Positions 15,316-53,568 of a stretch of DNA of 64,000 bases are shown one piece after another; the stretch's first letter is position 1, and each line of letters opens with the position of its first letter. The translations under genes and the position numbers were made by a program. This DNA comes from Ponticoccus alexandrii (lineage in GTDB: Bacteria; Pseudomonadota; Alphaproteobacteria; Rhodobacterales; Rhodobacteraceae): contig NZ_CP047166.1 of assembly GCF_016806125.1 (NCBI RefSeq), forward strand, positions 3,224,001-3,288,000, in the 5' to 3' direction. The notes under the pieces were generated by a model, which made no database searches, was not told the origin of the DNA, and was given only the letters and a program-made list of their open reading frames with translations.

Positions 15316-15346
15316 TGCAGTAGATATACAACGTATATCTACTGCA
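15316..15346. promoter_or_regulatory. HxlR operator: 14-bp-arm palindrome
   Basis: TGCAGTAGATATAC at 15316-15329 and its exact complement GTATATCTACTGCA at 15333-15346 are separated by three bases. It lies in the gap between the oxidoreductase and the HxlR gene, 26 nt before each start. No transcription terminator is expected there, so a dimeric regulator site is the best reading. Confidence 0.75.
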
Positions 15347-25146: not shown

Positions 25147-25552
25147 AACCGGCCAGTATTGTCAGCGACAACGGCACCGAGTTCACCAGCCGGGCGATCC
25201 TGAAATGGGCGAACGACAACGATGTCGATTGGCATTACATTGATCCTGGCAAGCCCCAGCAGAACGCCTTCATCGAAAGCTTCAATGGCAGCCTGCGCGA
25301 TGAACTGCTGAACGAAGAGATGTTCGACAGCCTGGAGGACGCCCGCAGAAAGCTGGCGCTCTGGCGATACGACTACAACAACGTCAGGCCGCACTCTTCG
25401 CTGGCGAACCAAACACCCGCAGAAGCGCGCCGAACGCTTGAGCAATTCGAGGGCTCCACGCCCGCCTCGCTTGCGCCAGACGAGGAAGCCGAATACCAAA
25501 ATCAAACCTGCAGACGCTCGTTATGAATGACGGACCCGCAGGGGGCAGGTCA
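25147..25552 (+). mobile_element. IS3-family remnant: C-terminal third of the transposase plus right end
   Basis: The frame [20 protein letters not shown] then [20 protein letters not shown] (catalytic D and E of the DDE core, FIESFNG) and the tail [19 protein letters not shown] runs to the stop at 25526. It is followed by GGGGGCAGGTCA ending at 25552, which looks like the element's right terminal repeat. The left two thirds are lost. Its left edge lies inside the LysR gene. Confidence 0.85.
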
Positions 25553-25628
25553 CGGCCTATGCGTTTCGACATGATCTGTGAGGCCAACGGGATTGAGCAC
25601 CGGCTGACCAAACCCAATCATCCTTGGA

Positions 25629-25681
25629 GTTCCGAGGATCAGAAAACGATCCGGGGGATCGTTTTCCCGAGGGACGGACAA
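25629..25681 (-). repeat. Palindromic insert E3 in the IS481 remnant
   Basis: GAAAACGATCC at 25642-25652 and GGATCGTTTTC at 25656-25666 form an 11-bp stem with a 3-nt loop. On the minus strand it is preceded by CTCGGG, like E1 and E2 (TCGGG before the stem). It replaces CCAACCCCCAG of the intact copy; net +42 nt adds 14 residues and keeps the frame. Confidence 0.75.
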
Positions 25682-25775
25682 GTCGAACGGATGAACCGCA
25701 CGATCAAGGAGGCCACCGTCAAACGCTTCCACTACGCAGCCATGATCAGCTGAGAACGCACCTCTCGGACTTCAT

Positions 25776-25826
25776 CTTGCGTCGGGAACGACAGTCCACT
25801 GGACTGTCGTCTTTTCCCTCCTCACA
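25776..25826 (+). repeat. Palindromic insert E1 in the IS481 remnant
   Basis: A 51-nt stretch between TTCAT and TACAAC replacing about 7 nt. It has left flank CTTGCGTCGGG, a stem ACGACAGTCC/GGACTGTCGT (25788-25797 with 25801-25810) and a right flank ending CCCTCCTCAC. The insert at 38813-38863 has the same flanks and a stem with compensating base-pair changes. Confidence 0.8.
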
Positions 25827-26069
25827 TACAACTTCGCGCGCCGGCTCAAGACCCTCAACGGGCTCACACCCTACGAGTACATCTGCAAGATCTGGACTTC
25901 AGAGCCGGACAGATCCATCTTGAACCCGATCCACCAGATGCCGGGACTGAACACCTAGCTGCACGACCTTTGTGACGCTGCGCCCGATCTGAGCGCCGTG
26001 TTGCGTCTCGCGGTCTCTTTCGGGCCAAGGCACTTTCTGCTCTGATGGCGTTCTTGTACGAGTACGAAT

Positions 26070-26834
26070 ATGGAGTCCGCGCCTCAAAAGACAGTCCGCT
26101 CGGTCGAGCGCACCTTGCAGATCCTCGAATTGATGAACCGTGCGCCACTGGTGCGCGTGCAGCATCTCGCACAGGAGACGGGTCTGCCCGCGCCGACGGT
26201 CGTGCGCCTGCTGGAGACGCTCATGAGCGCAGGATACGTGCGCAAGATCGGGCGGCAGGCCGGGTATTGCGTGACCGAGAAGGTCGCGGCGTTGGGCGCC
26301 GGGCATCACGGGCTGCCTCAGGTTTTCGACGTGGCGCGTGAGACAGCAGAAGCGCTGACACGCCGCACGCTCTGGCCGGCGGCGCTGGCGACGCTGGACG
26401 TGGATGCGCTGGTGATCCGCTTCAGCACAATCCCCATGAGCCCGCTGTCGCACTACCAGTCGACGATCAACCGCCGGATGACGTTGCTGGATTATGCCCA
26501 TGGGCGCGCCTACCTGGGTTTCTGCCCCAAGGAGGAACGCGCGCATCTCGTGGCCTTGCTCCAGCAGGCGGCGGCAAGCCCGGCGGAGGCTGAGGCCATC
26601 GCGCAGCGCGCCGATGCTGTCGTGGCGCTCACCCGGGCCAGTGGCTTTGGCGAGCGCACGGGCAACATCCAGCCCGAGACACATTCCATCGCCGTACCGC
26701 TGCGGCTGGGGGCCAAGCTGGTCGGCACGCTGGGGATCACGTATTTCGCGCGTGCCGACGTCGACGTGGCTGCGCTGAAGACCGAATTGCGCGCCGCTGC
26801 GGAGGCCTGCGAAAAGGGCGAGCCCTACGTGTGA
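26070..26834 (+). CDS. IclR family regulator (MhpR-like)
   Basis: 254 residues. Winged helix at 8-75 (SVERTLQILELMNRAPLVRV; LPAPTVVRLLETLMSAGYVR) then the IclR GAF-like effector domain with YAHGRAYLGFCPKEER and the final SIAVPLRLGAKLVGTLGITY strand. The closest known types activate phenylpropionate and other aromatic catabolic operons. It stands at the left end of the aromatic cluster. Its 3' end overlaps the convergent quinone reductase gene by 10 nt. Confidence 0.92.
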   Translation: MESAPQKTVRSVERTLQILELMNRAPLVRVQHLAQETGLPAPTVVRLLETLMSAGYVRKIGRQAGYCVTEKVAALGAGHHGLPQVFDVARETAEALTRRTLWPAALATLDVDALVIRFSTIPMSPLSHYQSTINRRMTLLDYAHGRAYLGFCPKEERAHLVALLQQAAASPAEAEAIAQRADAVVALTRASGFGERTGNIQPETHSIAVPLRLGAKLVGTLGITYFARADVDVAALKTELRAAAEACEKGEPYV

Positions 26835-27427
26835 GCGGCCGCATCCTCGGGGTACACGGTGCGCGCGCGGTCGTCATCCTTGCCGGAGGCGACAAGGCGC
26901 GGTTCGGCCTGCCGGAGATGGTGCAGGTAAGCCTGCGCTGAGGCGTCAAGCGCCGCGTCATCGCATTCGCGCGCGCCGGTCAGGATAAAGGGCGGCAGAT
27001 AGTGCATGCCCGTATGCACGGCCATTAGCTCAAAAGGCACGGTGACCTCGTCGAGCGTCCGCCCATACCGTCCGTCCGGCTGGTAGTCGCGGCCGTTCGA
27101 CCCGGTAGAGACCGCGATGCCCAGCGTCTTGAGCCGCAGCGCCCGCCCGCCGGGACCGTAGGCCCAGCCGCGTTTCATGATCTCGGTCTGCCAGCCCGAC
27201 AACAGCGGCGGGCAGGAATACCAAGTCAGGGGAAATTGCAGCACGATGCGGTCGTGCTCGGTCACAAGCTGCCGCTCGGCCTCTCCGCATATCTGCCCAT
27301 CGGGGTAGCGCGCGTAGAGGTCGTGCAATGTGACGTCACTTGTGGCGCGGATGGCTTCGGCCCAGCGGCGGTTGATGCGGCTGCGGCCCATGTCGGGATG
27401 GGCGAGAATGACGAGCGCTCGGGTCAT
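26825..27427 (-). CDS. NAD(P)H:quinone oxidoreductase, flavodoxin-like fold (KefF/MdaB type)
   Basis: 200 residues from ATG 27427. Flavodoxin_2 fold: ALVILAHPDMGRSRINRRWA binds FMN/FAD phosphate, then HDRIVLQFPLTWYSCPPLLS with the conserved FP-WY motif, and GIAVSTGSNGRDYQPDGRYG further on. These soluble enzymes reduce quinones by two electrons, avoiding semiquinone radicals, which fits catechol or hydroquinone chemistry in the neighbouring cluster. It is divergent from the cupin-like gene across 156 nt. Confidence 0.9.
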   Translation of the reverse strand: MTRALVILAHPDMGRSRINRRWAEAIRATSDVTLHDLYARYPDGQICGEAERQLVTEHDRIVLQFPLTWYSCPPLLSGWQTEIMKRGWAYGPGGRALRLKTLGIAVSTGSNGRDYQPDGRYGRTLDEVTVPFELMAVHTGMHYLPPFILTGARECDDAALDASAQAYLHHLRQAEPRLVASGKDDDRARTVYPEDAAAHT

Positions 27428-27583
27428 GGGGTCTCCGTTTCCGTCCTTCGTGGCATCGCCCGCGCAGGTCCTCAAGCACGCGACAGTGCAATTCCGCACC
27501 GTGGAACAAGCGCAGGTTTCCTGTGCGCGGCGCGGTCCGCCATGCGAGGTGGAAGACCACCGCAGACAAGACATAGGCCCCCG

Positions 27584-28492
27584 ATGTTCGATGACAGCGA
27601 TCCGCGCAAGGCACTGACCTCCACGTCGAAAGAGCGCAGTTTCTCCGGCCCGTTCTGCGGCCCGGAAGTGGGCAATTTCAGCCAGGAACCGCCGCAGCAG
27701 GTGGGCGACGGCTGGCAGGCTTGGATGATGCGCTGCACCAACCTCGTGGTGCGGCTGGTCCGCCTGAAGGGCACGGCCACCTTTGCCCGAGCAGGACAGT
27801 TGGATGAGTACATGGTATTCTCGACCGACGCCGATGTCCGTTTCGACATCGAGACCACGGCGGGCACGGTCAGCGACCATCCCGGCAACCACCTGTTTGT
27901 CGTCCCGCCGGGAGACAGCAGCGTGACGGTCCGTGGCAGCGGGCAGGTGAGCTTTCTCTACACCACGCGCTCTGCCGACCTCGTGGCGCAATGTGCGAAC
28001 CCGGAGATCCCGGCCAATCCGAACATTCCGCCGTTCCAGCAATGGCCCGATCCGGTCGGGGGCTTCCGCCTGCGCGCCTACGATCTTGACGTGCCAGAGC
28101 AGGACGGCCGCTTTGGACGCATCTTCCGCTGTACGACGATCATGGTGAACGTGCTGCCGCGCTTTACCGCGCCGCGCGATGCGTCCAAGGTCTCGCCGCA
28201 TTACCACGCCAGCTTCGAGCAGGTCAGCCTGACGCTGGAAGGGGATTTCGAGCATTTCCTGCGCTGGCCCTGGACGTCTGACATGGTGGAATGGCTTCCG
28301 GACAGGCACGTGCGTTGCGCCAGCCCTTCGGTGACCGTGCTGCCGCCGCCCGCGATCCATACGACGCTGTGGACCTCGGAGGCGACGCAGATCGTCGATA
28401 TCTTCTCGCCGCCGCGCATGGATTTCTCAACGAAAGACGGATGGGTCCTGAACGCCGAGGATTACCCGCTGGCACGGACCGAGATCGAGTGA
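27584..28492 (+). CDS. Cupin-like protein of unknown function in the aromatic cluster
   Basis: 302 residues. No exact family recognised. The first half reads like a cupin (YMVFSTDADVRFDIETTAGT, then HLFVVPPGDSSVTVRGSG); the second half has a plausible metal or ligand site in VSPHYHASFEQVSLTLEGDF then FLRWPWTSDM and ends PPPAIHTTLWTSEATQIVDI. The bicupin layout and His/Glu pattern (HYH..E) could support a dioxygenase, isomerase or decarboxylase step. It lies between the quinone reductase and the TetR gene, only 2 nt from the convergent TetR stop. Confidence 0.75.
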   Translation: MFDDSDPRKALTSTSKERSFSGPFCGPEVGNFSQEPPQQVGDGWQAWMMRCTNLVVRLVRLKGTATFARAGQLDEYMVFSTDADVRFDIETTAGTVSDHPGNHLFVVPPGDSSVTVRGSGQVSFLYTTRSADLVAQCANPEIPANPNIPPFQQWPDPVGGFRLRAYDLDVPEQDGRFGRIFRCTTIMVNVLPRFTAPRDASKVSPHYHASFEQVSLTLEGDFEHFLRWPWTSDMVEWLPDRHVRCASPSVTVLPPPAIHTTLWTSEATQIVDIFSPPRMDFSTKDGWVLNAEDYPLARTEIE

Positions 28493-28494
28493 CC

Positions 28495-29238
28495 CTAATC
28501 CGCGATGTCCCCCAACGCGGGCATCGAGGCGATGACGATGGTCTCATGCGCGATCGGCGGCAGGGCGGGCAGCGAGCGGCGTGACAGGTCGCGCGCCGCA
28601 TCCCGGGACATGCCAAAGGCCATCAGGATGTGTTCAGAGATCTGCTCGGGGTAGTCCCCCGGGGTCGCGCCGCTGGTGATGGACACCATGGCCGCCGCGA
28701 CCGCGCCCATGAGAATGTCGCGCCCGATCTCTGCCGTGGGGATGTGGAACACTCCCTCCTCCACGCCGCGACGGATCGTCACCAGAGAGTTGTGCCAGAC
28801 CGTCTCGCCAAAGGTATGCCCCGGCGCGCTGGAGTGGATCATCGCCCAGCCCCAGGCGGGGTTCTTTTCCGCCGCGTGCAGGTAATAGCGGATGGCGACG
28901 GCGCTCTGTTCGGCGGCATTCTCCAGCGCGCCGAACATGTGGTGCACGGCGCGGTCGAACTCCCTCGTCATTTCTTCGAGCAATTGATAGCGGAGCGCTT
29001 CGAGATCGTCGAAATGGTTGTAGAAAGTGCCCCGCGCCACGCCTGCCGCCTTGCAGATGTCCTCGATCCGGACGATGCGCCCGTCCGCGCGCCCGTAGCA
29101 GGCGAAGGCTGCCGTCAGGATCGTGTTGCGCGACTTGGCCCGACGCGCGGCACCGATCTCTGCACGGCGAGCGTTCCGCACGGTGCGGTAGCCCATGCGG
29201 AGAATGGCCTCGTCGGCGTTTTCGGTGTTTTCTGACAT
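28495..29238 (-). CDS. TetR/AcrR family regulator
   Basis: 247 residues from ATG 29238; an upstream ATG is possible. A basic N-terminal arm (ARRAEIGAARRAKSRNTIL) leads to the HTH RIEDICKAAGVARGTFYNHF near residues 57-76, then a long helical ligand domain. It is divergent from the extradiol dioxygenase operon across 445 nt and is the most likely direct repressor of it; the IclR protein may regulate the cupin/quinone reductase pair. Confidence 0.92.
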   Translation of the reverse strand: MSENTENADEAILRMGYRTVRNARRAEIGAARRAKSRNTILTAAFACYGRADGRIVRIEDICKAAGVARGTFYNHFDDLEALRYQLLEEMTREFDRAVHHMFGALENAAEQSAVAIRYYLHAAEKNPAWGWAMIHSSAPGHTFGETVWHNSLVTIRRGVEEGVFHIPTAEIGRDILMGAVAAAMVSITSGATPGDYPEQISEHILMAFGMSRDAARDLSRRSLPALPPIAHETIVIASMPALGDIAD

Positions 29239-29683
29239 GCGCGAAGCAGGGCCTCTGATCATGAGATTGGACTGGCAACGTCCGAGGTATGCCGCAGCCG
29301 CAGCGCCGGGGCCACCCCGAAGCCATACCGTCACGCTAATTTCACTCTGCGGAATTTGTAAAATGACTATTTGTGCAAATTACAATCTGTCGTAGGCTTT
29401 GGACATGGCAGCTGGAGGGCTGCAGACAACGAGGGCCCGGGAGAGCCCGCAGGGAGGACGACGAAATGATCAGACGACAACGACCGAGCTGAGCCATCCG
29501 GAGGCGCGACACCGCGCCATCACCCGACATTTCCGTGACCAGCACCACAGTGCGCGAGACGCCCCCCGCCGGGCGCGATGGCTCCTGTTTGCCTGGTCAT
29601 TGGTGGGCGCTCTGCGTCCGCCGTCACACGGCGCCGACACGGCGACCGTCCCGAACACTTTTGACTGAGAAAAGGATCACATC
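29239..29683. promoter_or_regulatory. Long divergent regulatory region of the aromatic operon
   Basis: 445 nt. An AT-rich patch at 29351-29390 includes the inverted repeat TTGTAA (29356-29361) and TTACAA (29380-29385) around TTTGTGCAAA, a good candidate for TetR control. The remaining 290 nt before the dioxygenase start is GC-rich and unusually long for a leader; the short open frames in it have no recognisable content. AGAAAAGGATC just ahead of 29684 is the ribosome site. Confidence 0.5.
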
Positions 29684-30598
29684 ATGGGGATCAACCGTAT
29701 CGACCACGCCGCCGTCAGGGTTGGCGATCTTGGAAAGGCGCTTGCCTGGTACGAGGACGTGCTGGGCCTGACCGTGCTGTCGCGTGACGCCGACACCGTC
29801 CACCTTGCCTGCCGTGGCAAGGCCGCCGACATCACGCTGGTCAAGGGCACGCAATCGCTGGAGAATTTCACCTTTGGCGTTGACGATCAGGAAGATCTCG
29901 ATCGGGTCGAGAGCATCCTGAAGAAGGAAGGCGTGGCCGCCGAGCGTCTGAACGGCGACAGCCGCCCCGGTGAGGGCGCGACGCTGAAATTCCACCTCCC
30001 CTCGGGCCACGAGCTGCGGCTGTGCACCGGCGGCGCCGAGCGCCGCGCCGGCGTCTCGGACTTTGACGCCAAGGGCTCGCATATCCCGACCGACATGGAC
30101 CACATCAACCTCCTGGGCGAAGTCGACCCGGCGGTGATGCGCGACTTCCTCATGATGATCGGCTTCAAGTCGTCTCTGAACATCTCCGTCGGCGGGCAAC
30201 TGGCGGGCATCTGGCTGCGCGGCTCGGCCTATGACCATGACATCGCCTACATGCGGGCAGTGCGACCCTCGGACCGGCTGCATCACGTGGCCTTTGCGGT
30301 GGAGGATGGCAACCACTACTTCCGCCTGTCGGACCGGCTCATGGAAACCGGCCATCGCTGGGAATTCGGGCCGGGGCGGCACAATGCGGGTCTGGGAAAA
30401 TCCACCGGCTTCGGCACGAACAACTACGCCTATGCCTTCGACCCCTTCGGCAACCGCAACGAGTTCTCTTCGGGGATGGAGCAATTCGCCGATGACGCCA
30501 CCCCGCTCGACGTGGACATCGCACCGGAGCAACTGACGGACGTGATGAACGGCTGGGGCTACGAGATGGCCGAGACCTTCATGACGGTGGGATCGTGA
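29684..30598 (+). CDS. Type I extradiol ring-cleavage dioxygenase (VOC family)
   Basis: 304 residues, two VOC modules as in BphC/HsaC/catechol 2,3-dioxygenase. The N-terminal module starts NRIDHAAVRVGDLGKALAWY; the catalytic C-terminal module has the iron ligands His in MDHINLLGEV (about H145), His in RLHHVAFAVED (about H206) and Glu in GNRNEFSSG (about E257). It should open a catechol-type ring next to a hydroxyl, in the cytoplasm, with Fe(II). First gene of an eight-gene plus-strand operon; its TGA overlaps the next gene's GTG. Confidence 0.92.
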   Translation: MGINRIDHAAVRVGDLGKALAWYEDVLGLTVLSRDADTVHLACRGKAADITLVKGTQSLENFTFGVDDQEDLDRVESILKKEGVAAERLNGDSRPGEGATLKFHLPSGHELRLCTGGAERRAGVSDFDAKGSHIPTDMDHINLLGEVDPAVMRDFLMMIGFKSSLNISVGGQLAGIWLRGSAYDHDIAYMRAVRPSDRLHHVAFAVEDGNHYFRLSDRLMETGHRWEFGPGRHNAGLGKSTGFGTNNYAYAFDPFGNRNEFSSGMEQFADDATPLDVDIAPEQLTDVMNGWGYEMAETFMTVGS

Positions 30599-31065
30599 GC
30601 CTTTCGCCGGACATATTCCTGGCGGCGCAGGACCTTGTCCTGCGCTTCTGGGCGGTGGTGGACGAGGTGGACGACACGCCCGGCGCGGCGCTGTTCACCC
30701 CCGAGGGCGCGCTGGTGATCGAGAGCTTCCGCGCCGACGGAACGGAGGAATTGTCCCGCTACTTTGCCGCTCGCCGCAAACTGTCCGCCGAGCGGCAGCG
30801 CGCCACCCGGCATCTGTGCACGAACCTGCGGGCGCTGCTCGGTGAGGGCACAAGGGTCGCCGCGACGGTGACGGTGTTCTCCGGCACGGGCGCACGCCCC
30901 CTGCCGCTGGAGGCGCCGTCCTCGCTGGCGGATTTCACCTTTGACTGCGTCGAGACGCCGGACGGCTGGCGGTTTCGCGAAGTCCGGGGCGCGCTGGTCT
31001 TTGCCGGGGCCGACACGCCCGACCTGACAAAGGCCGCGCAGGCTGCCAAGGGAGTTCCGGCATGA
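30595..31065 (+). CDS. NTF2/SnoaL-like small protein
   Basis: 156 residues, GTG start overlapping the dioxygenase stop as GTGA. An alpha-plus-beta barrel pattern: LRFWAVVDEVDDTPGAALFT, then ALVIESFRADGTEELSRYFA, RATRHLCTNLRALL and TFDCVETPDGWRFREV. This matches SnoaL-like or ring-hydroxylating dioxygenase beta-subunit-like folds that act as isomerases, hydratases or structural partners. As the operon has no separate hydratase, it could take a step there, which is inference. It overlaps the next gene by 4 nt. Confidence 0.8.
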   Translation: MSLSPDIFLAAQDLVLRFWAVVDEVDDTPGAALFTPEGALVIESFRADGTEELSRYFAARRKLSAERQRATRHLCTNLRALLGEGTRVAATVTVFSGTGARPLPLEAPSSLADFTFDCVETPDGWRFREVRGALVFAGADTPDLTKAAQAAKGVPA

Positions 31066-31736
31066 AGCGGGTCGCACTTGTCCACGGCTGGGGCGGCTCG
31101 TATGCCGCGACCTGGCAGGCCGATGGCTGGGACGACGCTCTGCGCGACGCGGGGTTCGAGCCGGTCGGTGTCGATGTCGCGGGGCATGGTCCGCAGGGTG
31201 GTCCGCATGACCCGCAGGCCTATGCCGACCTTGCCAGCGATCTTGCCGCGAAACTGCCCGCCGGGCTGCACGGGGCGATCGGGTTTTCGCTGGGGACCAA
31301 GCTGTTGCTTGAACTGGAGGCACGCAGCCCCGGCGCGAACGGCCGGCTGGTGCTGGGCGGGATCGGAGACAACCTCTTTGCCCCGGAAGCCGCCGGTCCG
31401 GCCATCGTGGCCGCGCTGCGCGGTGAAACAACCGACCATGCGCCGCAGGTTGCAGCGCTTCTGGCCTACGCGGCCAAGAGCGGATCGGACCCGGCCTGTC
31501 TGGCTGCCGTGCTGGAACGGCCCGCCAACCCGGTCGTGACCGAGCAACGGCTCACCACCGCGACGGCGCCGATCCTGATCTTCAACAGCACCGACGACGC
31601 TGTTGCGCAGCCCGATGCGCGGCTCGTCTCGGCTCTGCCGGGCGCCACGCACCAGCTGATTGACGGCCCCGGTCACGTCGGCCTGACCGCCGACGACCGT
31701 TTTCGCGACGGGGCCATCGCATTCCTGACTGACTGA
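31062..31736 (+). CDS. Alpha/beta hydrolase, candidate meta-cleavage product hydrolase
   Basis: 224 residues, shorter than classical MCP hydrolases (about 280). Oxyanion LVHGWGGSYAATW at 6-18; nucleophile GFSLGT around 72-77; acid in NSTDDAVAQPD; histidine in DGPGHVGLTADD near the end. No lid domain of usual size is visible, which makes it more like BioH/RutD-sized esterases. In context it should hydrolyse the C-C bond or a lactone/ester after ring cleavage. ATGA overlap with the gene before it implies coupled translation. Confidence 0.85.
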   Translation: MKRVALVHGWGGSYAATWQADGWDDALRDAGFEPVGVDVAGHGPQGGPHDPQAYADLASDLAAKLPAGLHGAIGFSLGTKLLLELEARSPGANGRLVLGGIGDNLFAPEAAGPAIVAALRGETTDHAPQVAALLAYAAKSGSDPACLAAVLERPANPVVTEQRLTTATAPILIFNSTDDAVAQPDARLVSALPGATHQLIDGPGHVGLTADDRFRDGAIAFLTD

Positions 31737-31759
31737 ACCGCATAGGGAGGAGAAGACCC

Positions 31760-32932
31760 ATGTTTGACGACACCACACCGATGATCGACCGCGTTCGCGC
31801 AGTCCTGCCACAGATCAAGGCCAACGCGCCAAAGGCCGACGCGGATCGCATGGTCCCGGCCGAGAACATCGACCTGCTCAAGGGCACCGGCCTGCACCGG
31901 GCTTTTCAGCCAAAGGCCTACGGCGGGCTGGAAATGCCGGTGCCAGACTTCGAGAACTGCATCGCGCTGATCGCCACGGCCTGCGGGTCGACCGCATGGG
32001 CGTTTTCGCTGCTGGCGGAACACGCGCACCAGATCGCGCTTTACTCGAAGGAGTTGCAGGACGAGATCTGGGGCGACGACCCGGACACCCTGTCCTCTTC
32101 GTCCATCGCGCCTTACGGCAAGTCCACCGAAGTGGAGGGCGGCGTGCGCTTCTCCGGTGAATTCGGTTGGTCCTCGGGCTGCGACCATGCAACCTGGGCG
32201 ATCCTCGGGTTCCTGCGGGACACCCCGGACGGCGGCAAGGTCTACAGCTTTGCCATCGTGCCGCGCTCTGATTACGAGATCAAAGACAACTGGTTCACCG
32301 CCGGGATGCGCGGCACCGGGTCGAAGACGCTGGTGGTCGAGGATGCCTTCGTGCCCGAACACCGGATCGAAAGCGTGCCCGCGCTGATGACGCTGACTTC
32401 GGCGGGTGGCGCGCTTTATCCCGACAGCCAGATCTATCACGTGCCCTTCATCTACGTCTTTGCCAGCTGCTTCTCGGCGGTCAGTCTCGGCATCGCGGAG
32501 CGCATGATCGAGCTTTACACCGAACGCACGCAGGGCCGCGTGCGCGCCTATACCGGCGCGAAGGTCGGCCAGTCGATCCCGGCCTGCATGCGCCTTGCCG
32601 AAAGCACCCATCAGGTGGCGGCGGGCCGGGCCTTCCTGGAAAAGACATGGGCCGAGATGCGCGACCATGCCGAACGCCACGAATACCCGACGCCGACGCA
32701 GATGGCTTTCTGGCGGACCAATCAGGCCTATGCGGTCAAGATGTTCGTGGCGGCGGTGGACCGACTGTTCGAGGCCTCGGGCGGGTCGGCATGGTTCGAC
32801 GATGCCGAAGCGCAGCGCCTGTTCCGCAACAGCCACATGACGGCGGCGCATGCCTATACCGATTACGACATATGCGCGCAGATCCTCGGACGCGCATTGA
32901 TGGGTCTGGAGCCCGATCCCTCCCTCTTCTGA
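31760..32932 (+). CDS. Flavin-dependent monooxygenase oxygenase component (HsaA-like, acyl-CoA dehydrogenase fold)
   Basis: 390 residues. Acyl-CoA dehydrogenase fold used as a group D monooxygenase: LKGTGLHRAFQPKAYGGLEM at 42-61, ACGSTAWAFSLLAEHAHQIA, EFGWSSGCDHATWAILGFLR and the C-terminal FRNSHMTAAHAYTDYDICAQ with the helical tail seen in HsaA and p-hydroxyphenylacetate hydroxylase C2. It hydroxylates a phenol to a catechol with reduced flavin supplied by the reductase at 33011. A GGGAGG site precedes the ATG. Confidence 0.9.
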   Translation: MFDDTTPMIDRVRAVLPQIKANAPKADADRMVPAENIDLLKGTGLHRAFQPKAYGGLEMPVPDFENCIALIATACGSTAWAFSLLAEHAHQIALYSKELQDEIWGDDPDTLSSSSIAPYGKSTEVEGGVRFSGEFGWSSGCDHATWAILGFLRDTPDGGKVYSFAIVPRSDYEIKDNWFTAGMRGTGSKTLVVEDAFVPEHRIESVPALMTLTSAGGALYPDSQIYHVPFIYVFASCFSAVSLGIAERMIELYTERTQGRVRAYTGAKVGQSIPACMRLAESTHQVAAGRAFLEKTWAEMRDHAERHEYPTPTQMAFWRTNQAYAVKMFVAAVDRLFEASGGSAWFDDAEAQRLFRNSHMTAAHAYTDYDICAQILGRALMGLEPDPSLF

Positions 32933-33532
<600 letters not shown>

Positions 33533-33577
33533 GCCCCCCGCTTTCACCGTCTTCAAATAACCCAGGGAGGAGAACTT

Positions 33578-34444
33578 ATGAAGATGCTCTACAGTCTTGG
33601 CGCCACCGCAGTCGCGTTGACCATGGCCGCCGCACCGGCGCACGCCATCGACGTGGGCCCGGCGGATTACACCATCGTGCCCAGCGGCACGGTCGTGGGC
33701 ATGATCTATTATCAGCACCTGAGCTCGGACCGGCTTGAGATCGACGGCAACGACGTGCCCGGATCGACATTCGAGGCCGACATCGCGATCCTGCGCGGGC
33801 TCTACTACACCGAATTGGGCGGCCTTCCGGCGGTCTGGCACCTTGTGATGCCATTCTCCAACATCGGCGATGTCGACATCGGCACCCTGCCGCAGGACAC
33901 CACCAGCGGCATCGGCGACACCACCGTTGGGCTCACGCTCTGGCCGGTGCAACCGGACAACCCCGAAACCGGCACCACGCTGGGGCTGTCGCTGTTTGCC
34001 ACGGCCCCCACGGGACACTACGATCCGACCAGTATCGGCATCGGCGAAGGCACGTGGTCGATCACGCCGCAGGTCGGCCTGATCCAGGGGCTGGGAAACG
34101 GGTTTTACTTCGATGCGGCGCTCGACGTGGCGTTCAGCATGGACCACACCAAAGACGGCGTCGATTACGAGCGCGCCCCGTCGTGGCAGCTTCAGACGAT
34201 GCTGCGCAAGCAATGGGGGCCAACCTCGGTGACCTTCGGGTACAGCGGCCAGCGCGGCGGCGCGCAGAAGGTGAACGGCGTCGAAACCGGTCTCAAGACC
34301 CACCGTGATCAGCTGCGCCTTTATGGCACCCACTGGATCGACCAGACCACACAGATACAGGGCATGTACGCCAAGGACATCAACGTCGAAGGCGGCTTTG
34401 AATACGACAACGTCGTGCAGCTGCGCCTTGTGAAGGTGTTCTGA
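33578..34444 (+). CDS. Outer-membrane channel of the MetA/SphA phenol-degradation family
   Basis: 288 residues with a cleavable signal peptide (AVALTMAAAPAHA, cut near residue 23). Then repeated amphipathic strands and a final aromatic F, as in outer-membrane beta-barrels; the pattern GIGDTTVGLTLWP and GHYDPTSIGIGEGTWSITPQ is typical of the MetA-pathway-of-phenol-degradation family (PF13557). It should let a hydrophobic aromatic substrate cross the outer membrane. GGGAGG ahead of the ATG; same operon. Confidence 0.87.
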   Translation: MKMLYSLGATAVALTMAAAPAHAIDVGPADYTIVPSGTVVGMIYYQHLSSDRLEIDGNDVPGSTFEADIAILRGLYYTELGGLPAVWHLVMPFSNIGDVDIGTLPQDTTSGIGDTTVGLTLWPVQPDNPETGTTLGLSLFATAPTGHYDPTSIGIGEGTWSITPQVGLIQGLGNGFYFDAALDVAFSMDHTKDGVDYERAPSWQLQTMLRKQWGPTSVTFGYSGQRGGAQKVNGVETGLKTHRDQLRLYGTHWIDQTTQIQGMYAKDINVEGGFEYDNVVQLRLVKVF

Positions 34445-34498
34445 AACCATCCACGGCCCGGAGGTGATCCGGGCCGACCCAGACCAAAGGACTCCCCC

Positions 34499-35434
34499 GT
34501 GCCCCGGACTACGAAAAAGACTATTATTTCCTGCGCCGTGACCGGCTCTATCCACACACCGTCCATGTCGCCACATTTGCCGGTGACCGCCAACCAGATC
34601 GCCGAAAGCGCCATCGGTGCCGCCGAGGCCGGTGCGGCGGTGCTCCACCTGCACGCGCGGATGCCCGAGACCGGCGCGCCAAGCCAGAATCCCGCCCATT
34701 ACGCCGCCTTCCTGCCGCGCATCCACGCGGCCACGGATGCCATCGTGAACATCACCACCGGCGGCGGGCTGGGCATGTCGATGGAGGCCCGCATCGCCCC
34801 CGCCGTGCAGGCCGCACCGGAGCTGGCCTCTCTCAACATGGGGTCGTTCAACTTCAACATCTCCGCAGCCGAAAAGGGCTGCCGCGATCCGCAGCCATGG
34901 GAGGTCGATTACCTGCGCGGCACCCGCGACCTCATCATGTCCAACACCTTCAGCCAGATCGAGACGGTTCTGGCCACCCTGTCCGAGACGGGCACCCGGT
35001 TCGAGTTCGAATGCTACGACACCGGGCACCTCTACAACCTCGCGCATTTCGCGGATCGGGGACTGGTGAAGCCGCCGTTCTTCGTGCAGGCGATCTTTGG
35101 TGTCACCGGGGCTCAGGGCACCGACCCGGAAAACCTCATGCACATGCGCGCCACGGCAGAGCGGCTTTTTGGCGGTGATCACCTGCTGTCGGTGCTGGGC
35201 GCGGGCCGGTCGCAGTTCCCTCTGGTCACCATGGGGGCGATCCTCGGCGGGCATGTCCGCGTCGGGCTGGAGGACAACCTCTATATCGCCAAGGGCCAAC
35301 TTGCTGAGAGCAATGCGCAGATGGTCACCAAGATCCGGCGCATCCTCGAGGATCTGGGCCACGAGATCGCCACCCCGGACGAAGCGCGCGCGATCCTCGG
35401 GACCAAGGGCCGGGACAAGGTGTCCTTCGGATGA
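34499..35434 (+). CDS. BKACE family beta-keto acid cleavage enzyme (DUF849)
   Basis: 311 residues, GTG start at 34499. TIM barrel with IISCAVTGSIHTPSMSPHLP at the start, the metal-binding HxH in AAVLHLHAR (about residues 46-54), NITTGGGLGMSMEARI, and EDNLYIAKGQLAESNAQM late. The prototype Kce condenses 3-keto-5-aminohexanoate with acetyl-CoA to acetoacetate and an acyl-CoA; the family covers many beta-keto acids. In this operon it would cleave a keto acid derived from the ring, an unusual step for a meta-cleavage route. ATGA overlap with the aldolase gene. Confidence 0.9.
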   Translation: MPRTTKKTIISCAVTGSIHTPSMSPHLPVTANQIAESAIGAAEAGAAVLHLHARMPETGAPSQNPAHYAAFLPRIHAATDAIVNITTGGGLGMSMEARIAPAVQAAPELASLNMGSFNFNISAAEKGCRDPQPWEVDYLRGTRDLIMSNTFSQIETVLATLSETGTRFEFECYDTGHLYNLAHFADRGLVKPPFFVQAIFGVTGAQGTDPENLMHMRATAERLFGGDHLLSVLGAGRSQFPLVTMGAILGGHVRVGLEDNLYIAKGQLAESNAQMVTKIRRILEDLGHEIATPDEARAILGTKGRDKVSFG

Positions 35435-36174
35435 GGGCCGGTTTCCGCGCCCGCCTGCGCGCGCCCGAGCCGGTGATGGGGACCTTCCTCAAGATCCCCT
35501 CGACCCAGCCCGCAGAGATTCTGGGGTCGCTGGGCTTCGATTTTGTCGTGATCGACGAGGAACACGCGCCGCTGAACCCCGAGACAACCGATGCCATCCT
35601 GCTGGCCTGCCGGGCGCATCGCATGGCGGGGCTGGTGCGGGTGCGTCAGCCCGGCGACATCCTGCGCGTGCTGGACAGCGGCGCCGATGGCGTGCTGGTG
35701 CCGCATGTAACCTCTGCCACCGTCGCCCGCAAGATCGTCGCACTTGCGCGCTATGCCGGTGGGCGTGGACTCTCGCCCACCACCCGCGCAGGCGCGTTCG
35801 GCGGTGTGCCCGTGGCGGACCATATGGCGGCGCAGGATGCGCGCAGTGCCGTCATCGCAATGATCGAAGACGCCGAAGCCTTGGACCGGATCGACGAGAT
35901 CGTCGCGACCGAGGGGCTCGACGCCATCTTCATCGGCCGCGCAGACCTCGGGGCCAGCATGGGCGCTGCGGCGGAAGACGGTGGGCTGGACCGCGCGGTC
36001 GCGGATCTTTTGAGGGCGGCGACATCGGCCGCTCTGCCCGCCCTTGTGCTTGCGAACGGGCGCATCGACGCCACCGCGATGCGCGATCTGGGGGCCACCG
36101 GATTCCTGACCGGATCCGACCAAGGGTTCTTGAGAACCGCGGCAACAGCCGCGCGCACCCGCTTGTTTGAGTGA
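35431..36174 (+). CDS. HpcH/HpaI family class II pyruvate-type aldolase
   Basis: 247 residues. FLKIPSTQPAEILGSLGFDF then VVIDEEHAPLNPETTDAILL (general base His and metal ligand), LDSGADGVLVPHVTSATVAR and AIFIGRADLGASMGAAAEDG. Enzymes of this type split 4-hydroxy-2-oxo acids into pyruvate and an aldehyde using Mg2+ or Mn2+. The start codon overlaps the BKACE stop. It closes the aromatic operon; no aldehyde dehydrogenase follows. Confidence 0.9.
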   Translation: MRAGFRARLRAPEPVMGTFLKIPSTQPAEILGSLGFDFVVIDEEHAPLNPETTDAILLACRAHRMAGLVRVRQPGDILRVLDSGADGVLVPHVTSATVARKIVALARYAGGRGLSPTTRAGAFGGVPVADHMAAQDARSAVIAMIEDAEALDRIDEIVATEGLDAIFIGRADLGASMGAAAEDGGLDRAVADLLRAATSAALPALVLANGRIDATAMRDLGATGFLTGSDQGFLRTAATAARTRLFE

Positions 36175-36489
36175 CAAGGCACCGGACCGGGCGCGCAATG
36201 GCGCTCGCTCTTTTGAGATAATGTTTATCGTCTTGCTTTGAACGCTCTCAAAACGTGAGGAAAACGCTCAGTCCAGTCATCTGCGGCGCTTGACACCAAT
36301 GCGGCTGTGGGCCACCTCCGGTCACCCCCTGCGCCTGGCCGAACGGCAGCTCTGGGCCGGAACTGGCGTGCTACCCGGCCTGCACGAACACACGATCTGC
36401 CAACTGCGGCATGACCGCTACGAGCCCAACCTCCCAAATGCTGCGCGTTGTGGGAATGTCTTCTTTGAAGTATTCTCGGAGGAAAAATT
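36175..36489. other. Gene-free spacer behind the aromatic operon
   Basis: About 315 nt. The middle part (36290-36420) is GC-rich and holds CTGGCCGAACGGCAGCTCTG and CTGCGGCATGACCGCTACGA, of the kind seen in the accessory spacers. After 36430 it becomes AT-rich and ends in the GGAGG site of the next gene. No terminator with a U-run was seen. Confidence 0.4.
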
Positions 36490-36768
36490 TTGGTGCGGAG
36501 GCCCGAAAACGCTCTGGTAATTGGTTTCTGGCTTCTTCTCGCCGTAGCCATCATTTTGCATTTGTGGACTGGTGGGGTGGTTGTTGACTACAGAATTGAA
36601 GGCCGTCAGAATCTGATGAAACTGCGAGATCAACCGGGCGAATGGACTACGGTTAGCACAGCGGTTTTCTGGGTGCATTTGATTTTCAAATACTCAATGC
36701 TTGCCGCTTGTGTTTTGGTCGCAGCACGGGCGCTATGGCGATGGTTATGGTATGGCAGTCTTCGTTAA
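36490..36768 (+). CDS. Small membrane protein, unknown
   Basis: 92 residues, TTG start at 36490 (GTG one codon later) behind a strong GGAGG. Two hydrophobic helices (about 9-30 and 61-80) flank a polar segment VDYRIEGRQNLMKLRDQPGE; the C-terminus ends in an aromatic/basic WRWLWYGS tail. No family recognised. It is AT-rich compared with the catabolic genes, so probably acquired separately. Confidence 0.65.
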   Translation: MVRRPENALVIGFWLLLAVAIILHLWTGGVVVDYRIEGRQNLMKLRDQPGEWTTVSTAVFWVHLIFKYSMLAACVLVAARALWRWLWYGSLR

Positions 36769-36915
36769 TCCGAATGTTCCATCTGGACCTCTCACCAGTA
36801 CAGCGGTCATACGAATTCACGCATTGAGCGGTAGCTCCGTCCCGCGCTAAGGAATTCGGTGCAGATCGCGGCGAAGGTCCGATTTGAGCCCAAGCCGGAC
36901 ATTGGACGTGGTCGG

Positions 36916-37680
36916 TCAGGCTCTGAACATCTCCACCCCGACATCCAGCAGCCTCATAAGCTTTTCTGAAACTGCCGACGGCTTGCGCACGTCCAACACG
37001 TTCAGACTAATCCCGATATCGGCGATTGGCCTTATCAATACCTCGACATTATCGGCTTCGAAAAAATACACGCCGACGCCCAAATCAGCAGGAGCGCCAA
37101 AACACCGGCATGCCTCTGCAAAGAACGCCTCAGGATCTGAAGAGGCCGTAATCAGCGCTCGACCTTCTTTCGTCGTCTCTTGTCCGAAGAATCGTAAAGC
37201 GAAGGAGATAAGGCTGACATCGCCATATGGGGAACGCACAAGCTCCTGCCGCGCTTTGTATCTTTGCAGCGAATGGTTTGCTGTTGGACAAGGGGAGAAA
37301 GCTTGATGTGAACTCAGTATCGTAAAATATGATCTGTGATCCCGAGTCTCCATGAAGCTGATCCCTTCGATCGAAGGGTCAATATCGCTCAGGTCCCTCA
37401 ACTCAAGGCGGTACTGGCAGGATTGGGTTGATTTCATTTTCCCCTTCTCACCGACGAGCGTTTCCAAAACGTCGTTGGCAGCGATATCCGCGAGAAAACC
37501 CAGGAACGATTTCACCTCTTGCCCGAGCGGAGCCTTGAGAACGGTTTCTGCCTGATCCCAGGTTTCTGCACGATTGTGCGTCGGGGAAATCGAAACTCCG
37601 TGCTTCGCCTCTGCCATGTCACGCAACGCGTTGAAATGCCCGCAATGATCATCGGCGCTCAATCCTGTAAAAAAACCCAC
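36916..37680 (-). CDS. Hypothetical protein, unknown family
   Basis: 254 residues, GTG start at 37680 with AGAGGTG seven bases ahead. No signal peptide or membrane helix. Mixed alpha/beta with three cysteine-containing stretches (SADDHCGHFN, TQSCQYRLELRD, AEACRCFGAP) and a C-terminal strand-rich part LGVGVYFFEADNVEVLIRPI. I do not recognise a domain. Base composition is lower in GC than core genes. It follows the secreted-protein gene at 37740 on the same strand by 59 nt and may form an operon with it. Confidence 0.7.
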   Translation of the reverse strand: MGFFTGLSADDHCGHFNALRDMAEAKHGVSISPTHNRAETWDQAETVLKAPLGQEVKSFLGFLADIAANDVLETLVGEKGKMKSTQSCQYRLELRDLSDIDPSIEGISFMETRDHRSYFTILSSHQAFSPCPTANHSLQRYKARQELVRSPYGDVSLISFALRFFGQETTKEGRALITASSDPEAFFAEACRCFGAPADLGVGVYFFEADNVEVLIRPIADIGISLNVLDVRKPSAVSEKLMRLLDVGVEMFRA

Positions 37681-37739
37681 GGTTTTGCACCTCTTCGCCG
37701 GATTGCGTTTGGCTCACACCGGAACCGTCTCCGCCGTTA

Positions 37740-38267
37740 TCACAAATCGGTCTTCAGCAACTTTCCGAACGCAATATGCATCTCGCGATCTCTGTCGGTC
37801 ATCGTGTCGCCTATGCGCCAAGTGGTGATGCGCAGCGTTTTCGTCGGGCCGACAGAGACAGTATTCACATAAATATTGGATCGGCCATCCATCGTCCCGC
37901 GCGCGGCGTAAACATAGTTTTCGCTTGCAACCCTTCCTGACTTCAAAAGGGCGAAGTCTTGGGAGGCTTCACTGTCTGACCGGGCCATGAGGCGTGCGGC
38001 GCGCTCGCTTTCCACCCCGTCATTCGTGCCCCCGTCAAAAAACCTGACGCTACCGGCAAAACCATCTTCTGTGTTGTAGAAGAGGAAGCTATCCCCCTTG
38101 TCTTCACGCAGCTCCCATGCCGTGCCCGCGACACATATCGAGATATCCAGCGGCTTGTTAAGAGGCATACAAGCATAAGCAGGTTTCGAAGGCAGGCATA
38201 GACCGCACACAAATAACGCTACCTTTGGAAGGCTGGCTTTCTTGAGTGTTGCATTCAACAGTTTCAT
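37740..38267 (-). CDS. Secreted or periplasmic hypothetical protein
   Basis: 175 residues from ATG 38267. A signal peptide is plausible: KKASLPKVALFVCGLCLPSK then cleavage near PAYA at residue 32. The mature part has two cysteines close together (ACMPLNKPLDISICVAG), suggesting one disulfide, followed by beta-rich sequence with FLFYNTEDGFAGSVRFFDGG and MDGRSNIYVNTVSVGPTKTL. No family recognised. Confidence 0.7.
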   Translation of the reverse strand: MKLLNATLKKASLPKVALFVCGLCLPSKPAYACMPLNKPLDISICVAGTAWELREDKGDSFLFYNTEDGFAGSVRFFDGGTNDGVESERAARLMARSDSEASQDFALLKSGRVASENYVYAARGTMDGRSNIYVNTVSVGPTKTLRITTWRIGDTMTDRDREMHIAFGKLLKTDL

Positions 38268-38596
38268 TCGAACGGACGGGCTTTCACATATTCTAAAGCG
38301 GCTTGAGGTTTCCGGGTATCATCATGGTGTTCGCCGAGCAATCTGCATTACCACTTCACGCATGAAGTGTAGCCGCCCGTTTTCGACCGGCAGCTCCGTC
38401 CCGCGCAGCGGCCCTTCGCCTTCCCGGCCATGCTGCACGACACCACGAATGACCGGTTTGAGGAAGCTGCACCGCGGCGATAGCCGACCCGGCGAAAGTC
38501 CGGATTGGACCGGTTGTGCCAGACGGACCAGGCGCCCCCTTGTTGCGCGCCATTTCCGCTTCCTGCGCATTCCAGCCTTGCACTGCTCCCCAACCT
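38268..38596. other. Gene-free spacer left of the IS3 element
   Basis: 330 nt. Most of it (38375-38530) is GC-rich non-coding sequence with CGGCAGCTCCGTCCCGCGC, CGGCCATGCTGC, GAATGACCGG and CGGCGAAAGTCCGGATTGGA, resembling the other accessory spacers; a similar AGCTCCGTCCCGCGC string is at 36831. No gene seen. Confidence 0.4.
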
Positions 38597-38812
38597 TGGA
38601 CCGCCGGAAGCTGGATTTTCCCGGCTGTCTCACGATGACGGGCTGGTGACGCCATCGGGATAATGCATGGCGATCGGGACGTTGTATCCGATCGCGCTGT
38701 GAGGTCGGTCCTCGTTGTCGTGTCTACGCCAATCTTCCAACTTTTCACGGGCGTCGGCAAGGCTCATGAACCAGTGGGCGTTCAGGCATTCTGACCGGAG
38801 CTTGCTGTTGAA

Positions 38813-38863
38813 CGTGAGGAGGGGTCTGCAAACAGTCCGGGGGACTGTTTGCCCCGACGCAAG
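38813..38863 (-). repeat. Palindromic insert E2 in IS3 orfB
   Basis: On the minus strand it reads left flank CTTGCGTCGGG, stem GCAAACAGTCC, loop CCC, stem GGACTGTTTGC (arms at 38842-38852 and 38828-38838), right flank ending CCCTCCTCAC. It sits between TTCAT and TTCAAC, replacing about 7 nt (expected codons for ESF). Flanks are the same as in E1 at 25776. Confidence 0.8.
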
Positions 38864-39276
38864 ATGAACCCGTTATCCGTCGGCTTTCCAGGCCGTGAGA
38901 AGTCCAGCGTGACGTCGTTGGCATAGGCCCATAGGTCCAGGTCACGCGAGATGAACTCGCTGCCATTATCGACCCGAATTGTCTTCGGGTAGCCGAGCCT
39001 GGCGCAGACCTTCTCCAGCGTTTGCACGACGTCCTCGCCCCGGTAGGTGAAGCGGGGATCGGCCGCCGGGCACAGCCGGGAATGGGTATCGACAACGGTC
39101 AGGATACGGAGCTTCTTGCCCATGGCCAGCTGGTCGTGGACGAAATCCATTGCCCAGACATCGTTCGGACCGACCGCCTCCTGGCGATCTTCCCGCAGCT
39201 TTGCCTTCACCCTGCGCTTCGGGTGCTTGTTGCGCAACTGGAGCCCCAACTCATTGTAAATCCTACGGGTCTTCTT

Positions 39277-39320
39277 CATCCCTCTCGGGACATTGCTTTG
39301 CAATGCTCTGTCGGGCAGCG
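39277..39320 (-). repeat. Palindromic insert E5 in IS3 orfB
   Basis: 44 nt replacing about 3 nt between ATCAAC and AAGAAGACC. Its core CATTGC (39291-39296) and GCAATG (39300-39305) pair around TTT; CTCGGG precedes the stem on the plus strand and GTCGGG follows. Net +41 nt breaks the reading frame. Confidence 0.6.
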
Positions 39321-39550
39321 GTTGATGATCCAGCCTTCTCGCCGAAGCAAGACATGCACACGGCGATAGCCATACCGCACGCGGGTCTCGCAGATCTCCC
39401 TGATCCGCCTTTCGACGGCAGCCTGGTGCGTCCGCCGGGACTTGTAGTGGTCGCTGGACGTGTCGAAGCTGATGGCTCCACAAGCCTTCCTTATCGACAC
39501 GCCCCAGTCGACGCACAACCCGGTCACGATCTCTCGCAGACGCCCAGGCT

Positions 39551-39853
39551 TCAGAGCTTTCGGCGGATCACCTCCGCTCGCCATTGTCCTCGGACCAATG
39601 GCGGACAATGGCTCGCCATCTCCCGATCCAGCGTCAGATCAGCCACGATCTTCTTCAGCCGGGTGTTCTCGTCCTCGAGCGCCTTCAACCGGCGCATCTC
39701 ATCCGGCAACAGCCCGCCATACTTCTTTTTCCAGTTGAAATAGGTCGCCTGGCTGATCCCCGCCTTGCGACATATCTCGGCGACAGGTGTTCCCTGCTCG
39801 CCCTGCTTCAGGATGAGCGGCTTCTGCGCCTCCGTGAACTTCGATGCCTTCAT
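39551..39853 (-). CDS. IS3 OrfA (HTH) with an in-frame palindromic insert near its end
   Basis: 100 residues from ATG 39853. MKASKFTEAQKPLILKQGEQ and VAEICRKAGISQATYFNWKK form the HTH_Tnp_1 domain; LKALEDENTRLKKIVADLTL is the leucine-zipper-like helix. The usual family ending DREMLQDVIRRKL is interrupted after DREM by about 15 foreign residues (ASHCPPLVRGQWRAE) encoded by the palindromic insert at 39572-39616, and then resumes VIRRKL. The frameshift window to OrfB is therefore altered. Confidence 0.8.
   Translation of the reverse strand: MKASKFTEAQKPLILKQGEQGTPVAEICRKAGISQATYFNWKKKYGGLLPDEMRRLKALEDENTRLKKIVADLTLDREMASHCPPLVRGQWRAEVIRRKL
39572..39616 (-). repeat. Palindromic insert E4 in IS3 orfA
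   Basis: 45 nt replacing about 9 nt after the DREM codons. GCCATTGTCC (39580-39589) pairs with GGACAATGGC (39603-39612), loop 13 nt, and the loop contains a further GGACCAATGGC. Net +36 nt keeps the frame and adds 12 residues. Confidence 0.65.
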
Positions 39854-39986
39854 GCGTTTCCACTCCTCTCCCAGCCAGGAAAGAGTAGCCGAAAACTCCA
39901 GCTTCAAACGGGCCAGTTTTCAGGGGCAGAGCACTGTTGGCGAAGAGGCTACATCACGGTGAGGGATTTCCAGGGGGGCAGATCAC

Positions 39987-40391
39987 GTGCCTTACCAAGT
40001 CCACACGACCCTGACCGACAACGGCATCCAGCTCGCTGAGCAACCACGGAATAGGAATACAGCCTATTCACGACCGATGCGCTTCGACATGATCTGCGAG
40101 GCAAACGGGATCGAGCACCGACTGACCAAACCCAACCATCCGTGGACCAACCCCCAGGTCGAGAGGATGAACCGCACCATCAAGGACGCAACGGTCAAGC
40201 GCTTCCACTACGACAGCCACGATCAGCTGCGCACACATCTCTCAGACGACATGGCAGCCTACAGTTTCGCCCGGCGTCTCAAGACCCTCGGTGGCCTCAC
40301 TCCATACGAATACATCTGCAAGGTCTGGATTTCAGAGCCGGATCGATTCATCCCAAATCCGATCCACCAGATGCCGGGATTGAACACCTAG
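39987..40391 (+). mobile_element. IS481-family transposase remnant B
   Basis: 134 C-terminal residues, from VPYQVHTTLTDNGIQLAEQP (catalytic D in TDNG) through HRLTKPNHPWTNPQVERMNR (catalytic E in VERMNR), HDQLRTHLSDDMAAYSFARR and LTPYEYICKVWISEPDRF to PIHQMPGLNT. The N-terminal HTH half is missing, cut by or next to the IS3 end. It lacks the inserts present in remnant A and so serves as the reference for them. Confidence 0.85.
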
Positions 40392-40523
40392 GCTGATGCG
40401 TGTGATTGTGTTCACCGAAGCTTCTGGCGGCAACCGGCTCGTCTGCAGGCAAAGTCACATAATCTCTAGGATGTAGTCGATTATTATGCGTAAACTTAAG
40501 CGTGTGCGATGCTGAGGTTTGCA

Positions 40524-53523: not shown

Positions 53524-53568
53524 CGAAGTCCGCGACGGACTTCGGCTCGTTTTCTTTGAAAGAAAACG
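53524..53568. terminator. Two adjacent hairpins between pheT and the YrhK-like gene
   Basis: CGAAGTCC (53524-53531) pairs with GGACTTCG (53537-53544), and CGTTTTCTTT (53548-53557) with AAAGAAAACG (53559-53568). The second lies just behind the stop of the minus-strand gene at 53574 and could end its transcript. Both may also be members of a dispersed palindrome family. Confidence 0.5.

Follow-up and report, generated by a model that had tools for sequence, protein, structure and literature searches.

Hairpin mini-elements in the transposase genes of Ponticoccus alexandrii and other Rhodobacterales, a proposed class of non-autonomous mobile elements

Two unrelated transposase genes in a 64,000-nucleotide (nt) stretch of the Ponticoccus alexandrii genome (contig NZ_CP047166.1, positions 3,224,001 to 3,288,000; hereafter the window) carry copies, E1 and E2, of one structured element that we call family A. 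Our preferred reading, to which we give a probability of roughly 0.6, is that family A is a non-autonomous mobile mini-element, of which E1 and E2 are two copies, and that it belongs with at least three other families of hairpins of 41-49 nt that inactivate the transposases of insertion sequences (IS) by way of some trans-acting enzyme. Both the covariation of the stems and the mobility of the elements are well supported.

One structured element in two unrelated transposase genes

E1 (25777-25825, plus strand) lies in an IS481 transposase gene, where it replaces 5 nt of the codons for ...DFMAAYN..., and E2 (38814-38862, minus strand) lies in orfB of an IS3-family element, where it replaces the GAGGC of ...FIEAFN.... 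Each copy is 49 nt in all and consists of TTGCGTCGGG, then 29 nt with a hairpin, then CCCTCCTCAC; the perfect stem measures 10 base pairs (bp) in E1 and 11 bp in E2, closed in both by a 3-nt loop. Without any mismatch, TTCATCTTGCGTCGGG occurs at 25771-25786 (plus) and 38853-38868 (minus), and CCCTCCTCAC occurs at 25816-25825 (plus) and 38814-38823 (minus). A search of the window with ACAGTCCNNNGGACTGT, allowing up to two mismatches, returned only the places of E1 and E2, a number equalled in 1 of 100 shuffles. Profile model R1, whose training set includes both copies, matches E1 with 74.2 bits and E2 with 73.3 bits. An earlier note on this DNA had proposed that the same cassette, with a stem of 10-11 bp and a 3-nt loop, sits in both genes, and this is borne out exactly at the two sites. 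Its dimensions are revised: where it had 51 nt replacing about 7 nt, alignment to insert-free relatives gives 49 nt for 5 nt, a net gain of 44 nt, at RTC|GNNNN, the base after CTCAC at the edge of the element being ambiguous. TTCATC, which precedes the element in both genes and which the IS3 and IS481 targets have in common fortuitously, is assigned to the target and not to the element, because other family A targets end differently (in GCATC, ATCAAC or CGCC).

Covariation was evaluated in alignments of 20 chosen sequences for family A and 26 for a second family, C, leaving out degenerate copies (L014, L016 and several short or decayed C copies); model R1 was trained on the family A alignment with one of its 20 rows off by one base, while the pair counts, given here for the corrected row, come out the same either way. 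In family A, 94.9% of cells are paired and 9 of 17 pairs show changes on both sides; all nine belong to the inner stem, which varies with compensation between constant flanks. The covariation score is 0.348. Shuffling gives 0.138, with none of 500 shuffles reaching the observed score, and sliding the alignment gives at most 0.076; the covarying stem first noticed in two copies thus extends to the aligned set. Family C has 95.7% of cells paired and 10 of 12 pairs changed, with a score of 0.497 against 0.118 in shuffles (again 0 of 500 as high), and it covaries along the stem. The plan of the fold is alike in families A to D: an outer stem, an internal loop, a few pairs, a one-sided bulge, a long stem and a short loop. 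In A, B and D the internal loop sets GA against GA, in C GGCA against GAGA; in family B it follows a 5-bp outer stem. These folds are of the real E1 and E2 for family A, and are single-sequence folds of only one or two copies for B and D. An Rfam scan of the window at E up to 1 returned a tRNA and a weak snoRNA match, none of them at the elements.

The same two genes hold three further inserts that the earlier note had not mentioned, B in the IS481 gene and C and D in the IS3 element. The 3' part of the IS481 gene (25550-25962, plus strand) was delimited by homology to the intact IS481 gene L019 and aligned to an uninterrupted IS481 fragment (39986-40396, plus strand) that provides the empty sites for both B and A; its family B insert (25629-25675, plus strand) is 47 nt long, GTTCCGAGGATCA and CCGAGGGAC enclosing a 25-nt hairpin at 25642-25666, and is matched by R1 with 39.1 bits (E 1.2e-8). 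The IS3-family element (orfA and orfB; 38579-39945, minus strand) carries, besides E2, a 41-nt family C hairpin in orfB (39280-39320, minus strand; 57.9 bits and E 1.4e-10 with model R2, in whose training set it lies) and a 41-nt family D hairpin in orfA (39576-39616, minus strand; identified with the help of its RNA fold) that replaces 5 nt (TTGCA). Relative L018, which has the empty site for C, shares 90.8% identity with the window IS3, from which it departs in collinearity over the common 1.1 kb only at the three inserts, and the relatives L019 (the intact IS481 gene) and L020 also lack the family A stretch; the alternative that the stretch is native to intact IS3 or IS481 genes fails against these three relatives. 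Both empty and filled homologous sites, the pattern that a mobile element would leave, are present. No target-site duplication accompanies the inserts: C is clean, with nothing lost or duplicated, and A, B and D each lose 5 nt. Net gains are +44 for A, +42 for B, +41 for C and +36 for D, mixed modulo 3, so that B and D keep the reading frame and A and C do not. In the IS3 gene, the GAGGC lost to E2 includes the GAG of FIEAFN, which from the DDE spacing of IS3 we take to encode the catalytic glutamate, and the sequence of E2 contains neither GAG nor GAA.

Other filled IS copies, set against empty references, reveal many more inserts, mostly of 36-45 nt net and at common positions, with about ten in a single Pseudooceanicola IS481 gene (L087). 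A second IS3 copy in the P. alexandrii genome (G000:C1:2035139-2038760) carries the same inserts D, C and A. This second copy is itself split by a 2.5-kb insertion (L164 5588-8085) with a 9-bp overlap resembling a target duplication. The window also contains an uninterrupted IS3-type fragment (...FIESFNG...; 25203-25505, plus strand; recognised by eye), a relative of the A-filled gene in L081 and L090. Outside the families described here, an inverted repeat of 14 perfect bp around a 3-nt loop lies at 15316-15346 and two adjacent perfect 9-bp hairpins lie at 53524-53568, and elsewhere in the genome a GGACAGTCC...GGACTGTCC palindrome without family A flanks is found at L002 1498-1520.

Distribution, targets and order of events

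Four family A copies are present in this genome, two in IS481 and two in IS3. A strict pattern occurs in 2 of 295 genomes of the bacterial family, this one included. When 84,980 species genomes were scanned, 88 stretches emerged; 21 of them, in 16 genomes besides this one, are true copies with exact flanks and hairpin, whereas the other 67 were judged to be chance matches, since their flanks read differently and their inner perfect stems do not exceed 7 bp. True copies are mostly from Rhodobacterales, with others in Rhizobium and Psychrobacter. Their hosts are IS481 at site one (six) and site two (three), the window IS3 type (seven), another IS3 type (two, with an rve match for L090), one IS21-like gene in Sagittula (by eye; Pfam gave no match) and two Psychrobacter Rhs genes, to which we return below. 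In the Rhs genes of this gammaproteobacterium, family A is joined by further nearby palindromic stretches recognised by eye (L080 707-754, 3043-3090 and 4543-4590; L032 1091-1138). Plasmid searches found filled A copies in Marinibacterium, Antarctobacter, Rhizobium and Ensifer, many empty relatives, and degenerate copies in Thioclava plasmids; among viral contigs four stretches had the loose A pattern and none an A-type hairpin.

Gene conversion between E1 and E2 was considered and rejected: in other genera, too, A is found in IS3 as well as in IS481, and the four copies in this genome together with the true copies in 16 others argue that A is no local gene-conversion product. The earlier proposal of one small element with a site preference, of a kind unfamiliar from IS3 or IS481, therefore stands, supported by those genomes, the empty relatives, the covarying stems and the mostly transposase hosts. 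The family A sequence of L012 matches that of L061 exactly although 55% of the synonymous sites differ between their IS3 genes, while the family A stems differ between the window and L012, the nearer pair of IS3 genes. Such a pattern speaks for elements from a pool having inserted more than once at one and the same site.

Family C is more abundant. Its target is RTC^G (A or G in 40, T in 35, C in 40, then G in 33 of 48 rows), and the same bases are found at most family A sites. With E up to 0.05 allowed, this genome has 24 C copies, of which 23 score below 0.002 (some within the training set of the model), and 30 of 80 sampled genomes of the bacterial family reach E 1e-4 or better, with up to 29 copies each. 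All 24 copies here are in transposase genes, 20 assigned by search or homology and 4 by eye. Twelve of these hosts are assigned by Pfam (L179 below the curated cut-off, L182 and L187 through a match elsewhere in the same gene), six by DNA homology or a common site, two (L177, L196) because they fall in an IS256 gene that has a Transposase_mut match in its downstream piece, and four by eye (L178, L186, L194, L192), NCBIfam having given no match on short pieces. Among the best C matches of 19 other genomes, 15 are in transposases (10 by Pfam, 1 by homology and 4 by eye: L201, L204, L210, L211). The prediction that hosts would mostly be transposases is in keeping with the family A and C copies read. 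In one IS256 gene two C elements lie back to back in inverted orientation, dimer-like (L165 4235-4315).

Hairpin inserts appear mostly to precede other damage. In 21 IS copies picked for carrying an A or C insert, several of them related, about 85 hairpin-size inserts stand against 24 other indel clusters, after the 66 and 41 labelled by script were re-sorted by hand on net size, with the hairpin class taken as 36-45 nt net (one of 29 nt) and merged inserts counted as two. Seven in-frame stops lie outside the 24 indels, in five of the 21 copies; ten copies are free of other indels in this comparison, although in a separate alignment L023, one of the ten, has two stops and L073, another, a 1-nt deletion. 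Outside its inserts the window IS3 has no stop and no indel in 351 codons compared, and it is from this and from the excess of inserts over other indels that we place insertion before ordinary decay. Phaeobacter porticola (G075) has four IS3 copies (L217-L220), two with six inserts, one with five and a truncated one with four, and no insert-free copy of this hairpin-laden IS3 was found in that genome. Non-synonymous to synonymous differences between these copies are 10:4, 6:4 and 9:5 (overlapping pairs, small numbers), and changes since insertion look near-neutral. Two of the copies have the same internal deletion, about 130 nt long and lying between GTCACC repeats, although they sit at different loci, which suggests that dead IS copies can probably move in trans.

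A proposed mechanism and its competitors

We propose that a trans-acting enzyme would recognise the folded hairpin, cut at RTC^G and insert the hairpin there. In family C the insertion would be clean, while in A, B and D the hairpin would be joined across a 5-nt staggered cut and the overhang removed. The outcome would be a transposase broken by frameshift or by lost codons, in an IS that could still move in trans, with its hairpins, before it decays.

The bias toward transposase genes could reflect either machinery that acts on transposons or the removal of elements that landed elsewhere. In the fullest form of the latter, the hairpins land anywhere, and purging elsewhere combined with IS copying leaves only the transposase copies visible. 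We regard this as the most serious competitor, if an unlikely one. IS copies with inserts do multiply and two non-transposase hosts are accessory genes, both as it would have it, but neutral intergenic copies would then be expected and none of the 24 C copies found in this genome is intergenic. Moreover, an evenly spaced 400-kb sample gave only three matches at E <0.01, all in IS3 genes (two by eye), and the many distinct sites in several IS families would require that a presumably small target had been struck many times. We are more doubtful still of an active genome defence in Rhodobacterales that would write hairpins into transposase genes at RTC^G by templated insertion, in at least six IS families and faster than mutation.

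If the hairpins were removed from RNA as mini-introns, or skipped by the ribosome, the transposases would stay functional. Precedents would be the byps of mitochondria, hairpins of similar size that are densely inserted in genes and skipped in translation, and T4 gene 60. Several features of the filled genes would suit such a process: the 351 unbroken codons of the window IS3, its ratio of non-synonymous to synonymous substitution (dN/dS) of 0.07 against L012, the 264 codons without a stop (and with one 1-nt deletion) that L087 retains despite about ten inserts, and dN/dS values of 0.22 and 0.23 in the insert-sharing pairs L055-L087 and L061-L062. However, byps are skipped in needed genes whereas the host genes here look broken; C inserts occur in both orientations within one gene, A enters IS481 in two different reading phases and deletes the presumed glutamate codon of IS3 with no GAG or GAA in its place, net lengths are mixed modulo 3, and the P. 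porticola copies look neutral. We consider this process improbable, and orientation, phase and the destroyed glutamate codon likewise disfavour the self-splicing that the earlier note had raised.

Comparably improbable is a REP/RAYT-type element moved by a Y1 (HUH) transposase, the partner suggested at the outset. Like the REP/BIME repeats of the GTAG and CGTC superfamilies, the elements are short hairpins with a conserved tag, some REP/BIME being intragenic; family A has CGTC beside its stem, and one C copy (L199) has a Y1 transposase gene in its vicinity. To our knowledge, however, the loss of five target bases is not expected of Y1 insertion, and a search for PF01797 gave no match in this genome, against 5 of 14 control genomes positive. 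Stem and loop sizes differ as well: CGTC-REPs, as described in PMC3733652, have stems of 8-9 bp and loops of 4-5 nt, unlike the stem of about 11 bp and triloop of A, and C has no CGTC tag. Less probable still is that a reverse transcriptase spreads the elements through RNA in a SINE-like, target-primed manner, for although the RNA-like fold with internal loops and the target loss would fit, a search of this genome for RVT_1 gave no match despite its 24 C copies, RVT_1 occurs in 14 of 30 C-positive and 15 of 50 C-negative genomes (compared by hand; 16 of 30 positives without a match), and G.T and A.C cells are equally frequent in A (10 and 10, in the alignment with one row off by one base), so that neither strand shows RNA wobble.

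A number of observations count against the mobile mini-element that we prefer. The outer stem of A is neither supported nor refuted, since its pairs never vary. Hosts are not always transposases: two true A copies are in the Psychrobacter Rhs genes (Rhs core match below cut-off), family C has one copy in a RelE-type toxin gene (L202) and another in a DUF3768 gene (L215), and the hosts of C copies L199 and L216 are ambiguous. Some of the copies on which the models were trained had come from IS-rich loci, and no mobilising enzyme was found in this genome among the two families tried (PF01797 Y1 and RVT_1). Above all, the constraint in L055-L087 and L061-L062 despite common hairpins suggests hairpins inherited under constraint, a misfit with simple death at insertion unless the insertions were independent, and it is mainly these pairs that keep us from rating the explanation higher. 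As a separate observation on the RelE-type gene, the C element interrupts it at about 1501-1541 of L202, with phage-like genes nearby by eye.

Relation to known repeats and significance

The nearest precedent would be RUP, the repeat unit of pneumococcus, in habit and not in anatomy. RUP are small non-autonomous repeats for which a preference for insertion into or near IS elements has been proposed, and they have been suggested to inactivate transposase genes and perhaps limit their number, according to the accounts in PMC2229807 and PMC3049150. The preference for transposases is shared by the hairpins described here (for C, 24 of 24 copies in this genome and 15 of 19 best matches elsewhere, four by eye in each case). 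RUP as described there are about 107 bp, AT-rich, with terminal inverted repeats like those of IS630-Spn1 and with target duplications, whereas the present hairpins are 41-49 nt, have an internal loop, lose 0 or 5 nt without duplication and are found mostly in Alphaproteobacteria. The two ends of A do not form an inverted repeat, and no search for a match of these ends to an IS was made. Rickettsia palindromic elements are likewise palindromic, fall within alphaproteobacterial genes and form several families; as summarised in PMC2229807 and PMC3767692 they measure about 100-150 bp, also lie between genes and are in frame in conserved genes, while the hairpins here are shorter, often frame-breaking and in transposases. 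Classical miniature inverted-repeat transposable elements are similarly short, non-autonomous, structured and multi-copy, but differ in target duplication, of which none is seen here, and in their ends.

No earlier description of these hairpin elements was found in open-licence literature, among the matches listed, and what we describe looks like an unrecorded way of disarming jumping genes in marine alphaproteobacteria. If our reading is right, the hairpins would be a widespread class of mini-element with an unusual insertion, in which 0 or 5 nt are lost and none duplicated, and a strong bias toward transposases. The idea derived from RUP, that small repeats curb transposases, would then become testable in a culturable group with complete genomes, and such insertions may be one reason why IS3, IS5 and IS481 genes in marine bacteria are sometimes found broken.

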